From: Acidobacteriota bacterium
GTDB lineage: Bacteria; Acidobacteriota; Holophagae; Acanthopleuribacterales; Acanthopleuribacteraceae
NCBI GenBank assembly: GCA_030066195.1
Contig: JASJCB010000025.1
Location: 1 to 64,000 of the forward strand
Direction: 5' to 3'
DNA length: 64,000 nt
Positions 215-19,788 of the stretch are shown here, in pieces. The notes under the pieces are model-generated. The model did not search any database and was not told the origin of the DNA. It worked only from the letters and a program-made list of their open reading frames with translations. The position numbers were made by a program, and so were the translations under genes. How positions within the stretch are numbered: position 1 is the stretch's first letter; every line of letters begins with the position of its first letter.

Positions 215-310
215 CTGAATTTTCAGGAACAACCAAACACAACCGGGTGCGAGTTCCCGTGAACTCAGCTCGACAACCGGAAACAACCTGGTTAACGGCC
301 CCCATTCCCT

Positions 311-364
311 CTACTCCGAAGGGCGTTGTGTACCCGGCAGTGTACACAACGCCCTTCGGGGTAG
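311..364. repeat. 23-bp-stem perfect hairpin of a dispersed 20-bp repeat
   Basis: Bases 311-333 pair with 342-364 over 23 positions with a single G-T wobble and an 8-base loop. The core CCGAAGGGCGTTGTGTAC is found again in direct orientation at 551-568 and 643-660, so four copies lie within 350 bp. Confidence 0.85.
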
Positions 365-385
365 GGGGGAATCTGGAACGTCTCA

Positions 386-430
386 CCCCAGGTAGGCAGC
401 CAAGACGGTGTCTTGCCCGCCAACCTGGGG
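386..430 (+). repeat. stem-loop element, copy 1 (covarying inner stem)
   Basis: Outer stem: CCCCAGGT pairs with ACCTGGGG, followed after one mismatch by GGC with GCC. Inner stem: CAAGAC with GTCTTG around a GGT loop. An inverted copy sits at 575-619, with arms equidistant from 502.5. A terminator-like hairpin follows at 443-467, so the element could be transcribed as a small RNA. Confidence 0.75.
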
Positions 431-442
431 CTGATAGGACGC

Positions 443-467
443 AATCCCTTCAGGATAGGGATTTTTT
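443..467 (+). terminator. candidate Rho-independent terminator
   Basis: AATCCCT at 443-449 pairs with AGGGATT at 457-463 and is followed by a T run to 467. It lies 13 bases after the stem-loop at 386-430. Confidence 0.5.
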
Positions 468-574
468 GTAGCCGGATTGCCTGAATGCCACATGACCTGG
501 GGTTTTACAAGGCGTCGGCTTTTTTGTCTTTGTTGCCGTCTTCTTATACCCCGAAGGGCGTTGTGTACTACAAG

Positions 575-619
575 CCCCAGGTTGGTCGTGATGACTCCGT
601 CATCGCGGCCTACCTGGGG
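575..619 (-). repeat. stem-loop element, copy 2, inverted
   Basis: Outer stem: CCCCAGGT with ACCTGGGG, then GG with CC after a mismatch. Inner stem: GATGAC with GTCATC around a 3-base loop. Relative to copy 1 the inner stem differs in sequence on both sides yet still pairs, which is what selection on structure would produce. Confidence 0.75.
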
Positions 620-836
620 TAACGTCCCCCCATTCCCCTACCCCGAAGGGCGTTGTGTACCTGGATGCCATGGGACAAACCGGTAGGATCAGCCCCAACC
701 GTTTCGTTCAAAATGGGGCATGCCATGCTTCCGCGCATCTTTTTGAAGATGGATCGCGGTCCGCGGGCGGGGTTGTTGTTAACTTTGCCGCCCGTATAGC
801 GTAAAATCCATGGAGATACTTGTCAGGGAGGGCGGC

Positions 837-3383
837 ATGAAGCATTGGGTCCCGGTACTTTTGGTTCTCGGCTTTTGGGGGCCGCTCGTTTCGGCTCAGG
901 ATGACAACAATCGGCGCGAGAACCCCATGGCTCGCTTCGAGGATACGACCGAGACCTACCAGGATTTCCGTCGCACCGGCAAGTATCGCGAGTCGCTGGA
1001 GTATTTGGAGAAAGCCATCAACCGCAGCGCCGAGGTGCCGCTGTTGTGGCTCTATGACCGCGCCGATCTTTATTATGAAGTAGGCGAGGTGGATCGCGCC
1101 ATCAGTGAAATCGAATGGTTGCACTATCGCCGCCCCTCTCCCAAAAGCGCGCTGCAACTGGCGATTTACTATAGAGCCAGGGGCGATATCCCCGCTTATC
1201 GGCGCACCATGGAACGGGCCGCCAACCGTTATCGCCGCTTTCGCGGCGGCGTGGATGAGACCGACAACGCCCTGGCCATGATTCGCATCAAGGAAATGCT
1301 GGGCGAGAACCCGCGTTCCCTCTTCCAGGACATCCTCAGCGTGGAGGAGCGCGAGCCGGAAAATACGCTCAAGCGTTACCTGGCCGCCGGTGAGTTGGCC
1401 TGGCGCAAGTTCGACTTTCAGCTGGCGTCGGAGTATTTCGACAAAGTATTGAAGCAGGATGAAGAGAACCTGGACGCCATGGTCGGCCTGGCCGAGTGCT
1501 ATTGGAAATCCGGCGATCCCCGCCTGGGCGAGATGCTGGAAGCGATTCAGGCCGTCAATCCCATTCATCCCCGCGCCCTGGCCATTATGGCGGAGTTGAA
1601 CCTGGAGAACGACCGCTTCGAGGAAGCCCTGGACCAGATCGAGCAGGTTCTGGACTTCAATCCCAATCACATGCGTTTCCTGGGCCTTAAGTCGGCCGCC
1701 TACTTTCTGATGGGCAAGCCGGAGGAAAGCGAACAGATCCGGCAACAGGCCCTGTTGTTCAACCCCTATGCCGCCGAGGTGCTGCGCATTACCGGCCGTA
1801 TCTTGTCGCGCAAATACCGCTTCAAGGAAGCCGCCGGGTTTCAGAAACGCGCCTTGGAGCTGGACCCCGACGACGCCCTGGCCCGGGCCTATTACGCCTT
1901 CGACCTGTTGCGGCTGGGCCGGGACGAGGAAGGCTATGCCGAACTGAAGAAGAGTTTCGAGGCCGACCGGTTCAATGTCCAGGTTTTCAACATGCTGGAG
2001 TTGATGGACAAGGTCCAGGAATTCGTGGTGGTGGAGCGCGACGGTTTCAAGCTGCAGATTCCCAAGCGCGAACGCGAGGTCTGGGGTGATGACGCGTTGG
2101 ATATGCTGGCCGAGGCCATGAAGCAACTCGAGGTCAAATACCGCATGAAGGTGGAGCGTCCGGTATCCGTTCAGATCTTCGACGATCACGACGATTTCAT
2201 GGTCCGCTCGCTGGGTCTGCCCGGCATGGTCGGTTTTCTGGGCATTTGCTTCGGCAACCTGATCACCATGGACGCGCCGTCGGCCCGCACCAAGGGCACC
2301 ATGAACTGGCAGGCCACGCTCTGGCACGAATTCGTCCACGTGATTACCCTGCAAAAAACCGGGAACCGCATCCCCCGCTGGCTGTCGGAAGGTATTTCCG
2401 TCTACGAGGAAGTGGAACGCAACCCGTCCTGGGGCCAACTGCTGGCGCCGCCCTACCTCAACATCCTGGACGAGGACGGTCTGCCCGGTCTGGATGACCT
2501 GGAACCCTACCTGACCCAACCCAAGAGCGGCATGCACACCATGTACGGTTATTTCGCCTCCGGCGAGTTCGTTATGTTCTACGTGGATCGCTTCGGGCAC
2601 CCGGCCCTGGTCGATGCGCTGGAGGCCATCGGTAAGGGCGTCCGCGCCGAGGAAGCGCTGGTGGCCGCCGCGGGCGCCTCCAAGGAATCCCTGGACGACG
2701 CGTTCAAAACCTACCTGGGCGAACGCGTGAAGACCCTCAAGAACCTGGAGGGCCCCGCCGGCGGCGGTTTGTTCCGCGATCAAGCCCGCCCCGTGCCCGA
2801 TCCCAAATCGCCCTTCCTGAAAGCGATGCAAGCCGGGGCCGATGCCATGCGGGCCGGTGACATGGAAAAGGCGGAAAAAGAATTGCTGAAGGCCCGCGAC
2901 CTGTTCCCCGAATACACGGGTGAGGACGGACCTCGCGGCATGCTGGCGCAGATCTACCGCCGGACGAATAACACGGAGGGCCTGCGCACCATTCTGGAGG
3001 AAGCCCTCACCTATGACGGGGCCGACCTGAACGCCTGTCTCGACCTGCTGCCCATCTACACCGAGGAAGAGGCCTGGCAAAAGCTGCACGACACGGCCAG
3101 GACCGGTATGCTGATCGATCCCTTCGACCTGAACATGCACCGGGCCTACAGCCAGGCGCTGGAGAAACTGAATAAACCGGACGAGGCGCTGAACCAACTC
3201 AACCGGTTGATTACGCTGGATAAAGCCAGGGCCGTGGATTACCGGCTGAAGCGACTGGACCTGCTGAAAGGCCAAAAGCGCTTGAAGGAAGCTAAATCCG
3301 AGGCCGTTCGCCTGCTGGAAGACGTGCCCTACTCGTGGGAAGCCCAAAAGCGTTTGCTGGATATCGTTGAAGAGGGCTCCTGA
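837..3383 (+). CDS. secreted TPR-repeat gluzincin-type metallopeptidase
   Basis: The product is 848 residues. It begins with a signal peptide (MKHW, a hydrophobic stretch, then SAQ). Tetratricopeptide-like helical repeats cover roughly residues 40-390 and again 640-845. Between them is a peptidase domain with HEFVH at residues 497-501 and a third-ligand glutamate in LSEG at 518, the gluzincin (peptidase MA) arrangement. I therefore infer a zinc protease exported to the periplasm or surface, with the TPRs binding protein partners. The ATG at 837 was chosen over an upstream ATG at 810 because AGGGAGG lies 5 bases before it and the signal peptide then starts correctly. The stop overlaps the next ATG, so the DUF4159 gene is co-translated. 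The substrate is unknown. Confidence 0.85.
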   Translation: MKHWVPVLLVLGFWGPLVSAQDDNNRRENPMARFEDTTETYQDFRRTGKYRESLEYLEKAINRSAEVPLLWLYDRADLYYEVGEVDRAISEIEWLHYRRPSPKSALQLAIYYRARGDIPAYRRTMERAANRYRRFRGGVDETDNALAMIRIKEMLGENPRSLFQDILSVEEREPENTLKRYLAAGELAWRKFDFQLASEYFDKVLKQDEENLDAMVGLAECYWKSGDPRLGEMLEAIQAVNPIHPRALAIMAELNLENDRFEEALDQIEQVLDFNPNHMRFLGLKSAAYFLMGKPEESEQIRQQALLFNPYAAEVLRITGRILSRKYRFKEAAGFQKRALELDPDDALARAYYAFDLLRLGRDEEGYAELKKSFEADRFNVQVFNMLELMDKVQEFVVVERDGFKLQIPKREREVWGDDALDMLAEAMKQLEVKYRMKVERPVSVQIFDDHDDFMVRSLGLPGMVGFLGICFGNLITMDAPSARTKGTMNWQATLWHEFVHVITLQKTGNRIPRWLSEGISVYEEVERNPSWGQLLAPPYLNILDEDGLPGLDDLEPYLTQPKSGMHTMYGYFASGEFVMFYVDRFGHPALVDALEAIGKGVRAEEALVAAAGASKESLDDAFKTYLGERVKTLKNLEGPAGGGLFRDQARPVPDPKSPFLKAMQAGADAMRAGDMEKAEKELLKARDLFPEYTGEDGPRGMLAQIYRRTNNTEGLRTILEEALTYDGADLNACLDLLPIYTEEEAWQKLHDTARTGMLIDPFDLNMHRAYSQALEKLNKPDEALNQLNRLITLDKARAVDYRLKRLDLLKGQKRLKEAKSEAVRLLEDVPYSWEAQKRLLDIVEEGS

Positions 3384-19059: not shown

Positions 19060-19788
19060 CTTGGCCGAGTTCAGCCGGAAAGATCACCTGGGATCGACTG
19101 AACAACAGGAGACCAAACGGTTACTGGAGACGCCTGCCAGGTGATTCATGTGATCCGCGAACATCTCCTTGACAGCCGGGTCTTTCAGCCAATGGATCTG
19201 TTGGGCGGTTCGCGTCATGACGTGGTAAAGAGCACCATCCTTTTGAAGTTTGATTCTGCGGGCCATTACCCGGGCTCCGGTTTGAAATGTAAGGCAAGCG
19301 GCGGCTCCGCGGCCACGAAACGCGATGCCGGATACCCATCCTACCCTGGCAAGTCTCTGCCGGCCAGGGGTTTTTGGAAATTGTTCTTCCGAGTCATCTT
19401 CCCATACAAGTCAGGAAACATCCCATCATACAACCGTCTTTCTAATACACCACTCTCAAAACTACCCGGCAGAGGCCCCAATAAAGCCCTGAAAACTGAA
19501 CGCGATGCACAGCAAGATCGATGAGCAGGTACACAGGCAGAGATCAATGAGAAAGATCGACGAGCAGGTACAGGCAAGGGGTGTCAAAATGACAGGTTAT
19601 CATCCAGGCAGCCGGGTTTACCTTTGAAAAAGACCGTGCAGATTGTGCAAAACGCCGATTCCAAGATGGACATCACAACTCACTTTTGATTAGGTAAATG
19701 TTTCCAGGGAATGCTACAATGCAGCCCTTGCTATGCCGTTAATCATTGCTACACCGGGAGGGAATCAAAACAATACAGGTGGTTTCCG
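19060..19788. other. gap with transposase remnant
   Basis: Apart from the truncated Y1-type transposase at 19084-19266 I see no gene. The rest has no long frame with a ribosome-binding site. Confidence 0.5.
19084..19266 (-). pseudogene. N-terminal fragment of a REP-associated (Y1/TnpA_REP) transposase
   Basis: The first 46 residues (MARRIKLQKDGALYHVMTR, followed by a DPAVKEMFADHM helix) match the start of IS200-like Y1 transposases of the RAYT group. After that the frame turns to unrelated sequence and stops at 60 residues. The catalytic HUH histidines and tyrosine are absent, so it is a dead remnant. RAYTs move hairpin repeats, which are abundant in this window. Confidence 0.7.

Follow-up and report, generated by a model that had tools for sequence, protein, structure and literature searches.

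The window (the whole stretch of 64,000 nucleotides analysed here, which is the start of contig C210 in an 11.6 Mb assembly of 407 contigs and ~92% completeness) very probably contains what is left of two adjacent REPIN-like elements, which are non-autonomous and would have been mobilised in trans by a TnpA_Y1 subclass 1.2 transposase. The anatomy of the repeated unit, its copy number, its compensatory pairing and its strand polarity are established here, as is the presence of units of the same plan, with multicopy doublets, beside subclass-1.2 tnpA genes in many phyla. The original prediction described the region as a REP/BIME-like mobile element or a structured RNA, and pointed to RAYT as the suitable transposase family. 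It was right on the kind of element (the units are multicopy, lie mostly outside long open frames, form inverted doublets and show a strand polarity of the fold), but not on RAYT as the partner.

The hairpins at 386-430 (-) and 575-619 (+), which first drew attention to the region, are indeed inverted copies, complementary across 502.5 at 36 of 45 positions; the axis follows from 386+619 = 430+575 = 1005. The compensatory change suggested for them is also present, in that the inner stems CAAGAC/GTCTTG and GATGAC/GTCATC differ and each of them pairs. Outer copies of CCGAAGGGCG were located at 316, 350 (-), 551 and 643, and the repeat region folds at -196 kcal/mol versus -135 +/- 5.6 in shuffles (z = -10.9). 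The repeated unit exceeds these hairpins, which are its cores: it consists of a mini-hairpin, a palindrome and a second mini-hairpin. One complete A- unit, one complete B+ unit and the remains of a third unit are found in the window (Table 1). The hairpin taken for terminator-like includes box1, the first mini-hairpin, of the A unit, and its T run is not conserved in other copies. The next gene, at 810-3383 (+), encodes a TPR protein with a Peptidase_MA_2 domain, and nothing that we saw connects it with the repeat.

Table 1. Parts of the repeat units in the window, with the basis of each assignment.
Feature	Position	Strand	Basis
Truncated B-type unit (palindrome 3' end, spacer, second mini-hairpin)	286..333	+	Alignment to 611-664, the matching segment of the complete B-type unit
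Complete A-type (CAAGAC) unit	343..458	-	Covariance model match, 121.2 bits
Box1 of A unit, mini-hairpin ATCCT-GAA-GGGAT	441..458	-	Alignment A1; outer pair C-G/T-A/A-T across copies
A-unit 45-nt palindrome with triloop and T-T mismatch at positions 9/37	386..430	-	Sequence
Box2 of A unit (TACCCCGAAGGGCGTTGTGTAC), mini-hairpin with bulged C	342..363	-	Repeat search and alignment
Complete B-type (GATGAC) unit	547..659	+	Covariance model match 546-659, 121.3 bits
Box1 and linker (ending AAG) of B unit	547..574	+	Alignment A1
B-unit 45-nt palindrome with T-T mismatch	575..619	+	Sequence; alignment A1
Box2 of B unit	639..660	+	Repeat search and alignment
Inner spacer of doublet, A partner missing in the window	660..727	+	Alignment with C33

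The arrangement can be read from contig C33, which matches the window over 312-727 at 91% and in which the spacer continues into an A- unit. The order there is B+ (reduced), A-, B+, A-, i.e., two doublets in a row, and the related reduced unit stands at the place corresponding to the truncated B-type unit of the window. Of this order, the window retains the A- and the second B+, flanked by the tail of the first B+ on one side and by the spacer that follows the second B+ on the other. The symmetry about 502.5 is the junction between two neighbouring doublets. The window copies fail a strict 13-mer three-hairpin detector because their mini-hairpins are bulged (a bulged base is present in three of the four).

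Read on the T-T strand, the unit of 109-120 nt begins with a mini-hairpin (TACCCC-GAA-GGG(C)GTT), which is followed by a 13-nt linker ending in AG (about TGTGTATTATCAG), a 45-nt imperfect palindrome with a triloop and a T·T mismatch (CCCCAGGTTGG..AWGACNCCGTCWT..CCTACCTGGGG), a spacer of ~20 nt and a second mini-hairpin (CTACCCCGAAGGGCGTTGTGTA). This order, with a linker of 12-13 nt ending in AG, is seen in alignment A1, and canonical copies are found in C77, C301 and C238. Both mismatch Ts are invariant in 28 aligned units, where the palindrome foot is ..CAG or ..AAG, with ..TAG and ..CGG variants; a GTAG or GTGG tetranucleotide 5' at the foot is absent from these units. Pairing holds in 96.4% of their cells, while slid structures are only 34-54% paired, and changes on both sides occur in 39 cells versus 12.3 +/- 2.5 in shuffles. 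One compensated pair belongs to the first mini-hairpin (C-G, T-A, A-T), and four pairs in the palindrome change on both sides. There are 39 G-T wobble pairs on the T-T strand versus 2 on the opposite one; the fold therefore seems to matter on the T-T strand, as single-stranded DNA or RNA.

The exact palindrome pattern occurs at 29 places of the host genome versus 0 for the reversed control. The covariance-model search proposed together with the original prediction, performed with a model built from the 28 aligned units, gives ~42 places in the preferred orientation (the matches minus reverse-strand and overlapping ones); further copies are thus many, and their stems pair. Most unit intervals (25 of 32) lie outside long open frames. 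Eight of the 11 converging doublets pair A (CAAGAC) with B (GATGAC) and three pair the same type, the doublet centres being short and non-coding; units also occur singly, side by side in head-to-head orientation, and in tandem runs (C301, C77). Beyond the host genome, the covariance model gave no match in 40 related genomes, six of the same family, in a first pass limited to 90 scored candidates per genome. The palindrome pattern had no match in a collection of genomes of 84,980 species, with records near the window's own left out; similar DNA was not found in plasmid and phage collections, nor an exact match in viral contigs.

Two side observations concern the surroundings of the units. At 10-233 of the window, a 42/43-bp palindromic repeat (GGGTCRARGAATCAG..ATTCTTYGACCC) is present five times; with at most two mismatches it has 158 matches in the genome versus 0 for the control. 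It is a second, more abundant interspersed family, and similar stretches are found near units in L012, L037 and L038. Further, there is a subgroup of longer doublets with CAATGCGATTAAGTTAAG-like inverted ends (L010 1069-1523, L035 1338-1775, L037 1345-1783, L011 1083-1102).

It is tempting to regard the units as REP/BIME elements of the classical GTAG type, with a class-2 RAYT (TnpA_REP) as the mobilising enzyme, considering that RAYT genes exist in the host genome, that the layout is BIME-like with an irregular palindrome, and that the units form multicopy inverted doublets. The predicted RAYT remnant at 19 kb is itself genuine: this N-terminal class-2 piece of 46 aa at 19084-19266 (-) is 83-89% identical to longer copies in C208, C217, C152 and C213. 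We nevertheless believe this explanation to be very unlikely. None of the seven PF01797 (Y1) genes found in the host genome, two of whose loci end at contig ends, has a unit within ~1.5 kb; the foot carries neither GTAG nor GTGG; and AG-tagged three-hairpin units occur at only 1 of 28 class-2 RAYT loci. Since the tag and a linked gene were both looked for and neither was found, we do not consider the units to be GTAG-type REPs of a class-2 RAYT.

A different Y1 lineage fits better with the plan of the units. The two strong Y1 genes of the host genome, in C364 and C114, encode proteins of ~150 aa. These are recognised by the IS200 model NF033573, and they contain both DHVH and Y---Q--HH, which is the signature of TnpA_Y1 subclass 1.2 (PMC6006769). 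Each gene is bracketed by other repeats of the same three-hairpin plan. The C364 repeat, GCGCCGAAGGTGC-TCAACATAATAG-CCCAGGGCAACGCCCTGGG, stands inverted on both sides and is also found elsewhere in the host genome, in inverted pairs that lack tnpA and whose copies are separated by 154-169 nt. The C114 repeat, TTACCCCGTATGGGGTTTCATCAATTAG-CCTGGGGTTGG..CCTACCCCGGG, has its T-T at the same place as the window-type units. At the C114 tnpA (L041 646-1404, 2404-2472), the three left-hand units have palindromes of ~112 nt with an extra inner stretch; the right-hand palindrome is shorter and its inner sequence is different.

A tnpA bracketed by exactly window-type units was not found in the 407-contig, ~92% complete assembly, the C114 units being related but different. 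IS200/IS605 insertion sequences encode tnpA between their two ends; no tnpA was found between the units of the doublets, and a search for TnpA remnants beside units with the C364 transposase (E up to 10) gave only the two known genes. Since no tnpA bracketed by the same units was found, we describe them as working like the subclass-1.2 class proposed below but lacking an autonomous copy.

A scan for relatives of subclass 1.2 gave 80 loci, which come from several phyla, among them Planctomycetota, Verrucomicrobiota, Acidobacteriota and Bacteroidota, and the Y motif is present in 86 of 88 proteins. At 38 of 78 loci, the upstream flank and the inverted downstream flank agree more closely than the 99th percentile for mismatched pairs. 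The three-hairpin unit, read from outer to inner, stands beside tnpA on at least one side at 56 of 74 loci and on both sides at 28 of 74. The shuffle control gave 0-2 and 0, respectively; the opposite-strand control (35/74 for one side, 4/74 for both) is not empty because each hairpin is nearly symmetric. The plan is found on at least one side at 8 of 28 class-2 RAYT loci, and its AG-tagged form at 38/74 subclass-1.2 loci versus 1/28 class-2 RAYT loci (P = 2.5e-6). Linkers are most often 12 nt long (45 units) and most often end in AG (52 units). Within the family, some subclass-1.2 genes are without flanking inverted repeats, namely L095 and L098.

Near matches come from distant genomes: ATCCCAACGGGAT-TGTGTCCCAAAG-CCCAAGGTTGG..CCTACCTTGGG at L123 and ACCCCGAAGGGGT..CCCAGGG..CCCTGGG..ACCCCGAAGGGGT at L163. 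The genomes of L123, L139 and L146 each contain multiple copies of the palindromes, many of which form inverted pairs with a spacing of 130-170 nt; in that of L146 most pairs combine both palindrome subtypes from the two ends of the tnpA copy, and resemble in this the host doublets, where A is combined with B. The palindrome type agrees with the transposase tree, on which a single change suffices for the T-T palindrome, versus a shuffled mean of 5.9 (0 of 500 as low). The C114 protein, which the detector leaves unlabelled, is placed among the T-T holders with weak branch support. We consider it likely that subclass 1.2 is a widespread and separate REPtron-like class, with three-hairpin AG-tagged repeats, two palindrome types (short perfect and long T-T) following the tree, and doublets of left and right ends across phyla; the window would hold such doublets without a matching tnpA.

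The second explanation, a structured RNA (a regulatory element or a small RNA) that has multiplied as a repeat and is selected at the level of the transcript, would be equally suited by the covariation and the wobble polarity. We find it highly unlikely, considering that the units occur in both orientations, in tandem and truncated, that there is no Rfam match at a family cut-off (only microRNA-type matches below the cut-offs), and that units of this plan are associated with tnpA in other genomes; the latter association favours single-stranded DNA over structured RNA. The least probable explanation is a DDE-type MITE with the hairpins as cargo and the 18-bp inverted CAATGCGATTAAGTTAAG as true terminal repeats of the longer subgroup: CAATGCGATTAAGTTAAG does stand at one or both outer ends in C71, C163, C264 and C127, but the doublets of C267, C366, C372, C238 and C77 are without such ends, the ends that were read showed no target duplication, and the shared core is the unit. 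Integron attC sites were dropped on inspection by eye, as the conserved R boxes are absent.

In comparison with known systems, the REPIN/BIME elements of TnpA_REP (RAYT) groups 2 and 3 (PMC3116915, PMC8266576) are similar in their inverted doublets of palindromic units, many tnpA-less copies and related Y1 enzymes; the strand-specific imperfect palindrome with an irregular stem is a likeness to RAYT group 2. Unlike them, the present units have no GTAG tag, their palindrome is framed by two additional mini-hairpins, one on either side, and the presumed partner enzymes are of subclass 1.2 (Y---Q--HH) rather than class 2 (Y---NP). IS200/IS605 (TnpA_IS200 subclass 1.1, PMC6006769) shares the family of short Y1 HUH transposases and hairpins near both ends; however, a three-hairpin unit forms the present ends in inverted copies, tnpA is missing from most copies, and in subclass 1.1 the Y motif (Y---Q) is different and tnpA is present in many copies.

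The protein length, the DH[VI]H and Y---Q--HH motifs and the low tnpA copy number agree with TnpA_Y1 subclass 1.2 as described in PMC6006769. According to that reference classification, the subclass has no IS properties and no REP is listed for it, and the taxa named are mainly Cyanobacteria and Bacteroidetes; in the present analysis the genes are flanked by repeats and are also found in Planctomycetota, Verrucomicrobiota, Acidobacteriota and others. The automatic REP search of PMC6006769 demanded a GTAG or GTGG tag and would miss the present units. In the openly accessible journal literature we found no description of this repeat type, and its novelty is provisional.

These elements resemble REPINs and probably work like them, as gene-less inverted doublets putatively moved in trans. 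The complete element would be an inverted pair of units, most often one A and one B, with the first mini-hairpins outermost. Each unit may be a strand-specific signal that folds once its strand becomes single-stranded, for instance during lagging-strand synthesis. A short HUH/Y1 enzyme from TnpA_Y1 subclass 1.2 would recognise, cut and join the units, mobilising them in trans on single-stranded DNA. We presume that A and B correspond to the two ends, left and right, of an element that was once complete, with a short spacer now at the position of tnpA; the best candidate for the acting tnpA in the host genome is that of C114.

The reported association gives the subclass-1.2 transposases a recognisable partner sequence, so that their activity becomes testable by the TnpA_REP cleavage assay, which has already been applied to TnpA_REP (PMC8266576). 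The palindrome type, with or without the mismatch, is tied to the transposase lineage, which parallels RAYT groups 2 and 3 in a separate lineage. The association also offers an explanation for the palindromic repeats of the same plan in the genomes of Acidobacteriota, Verrucomicrobiota, Planctomycetota and Bacteroidota.
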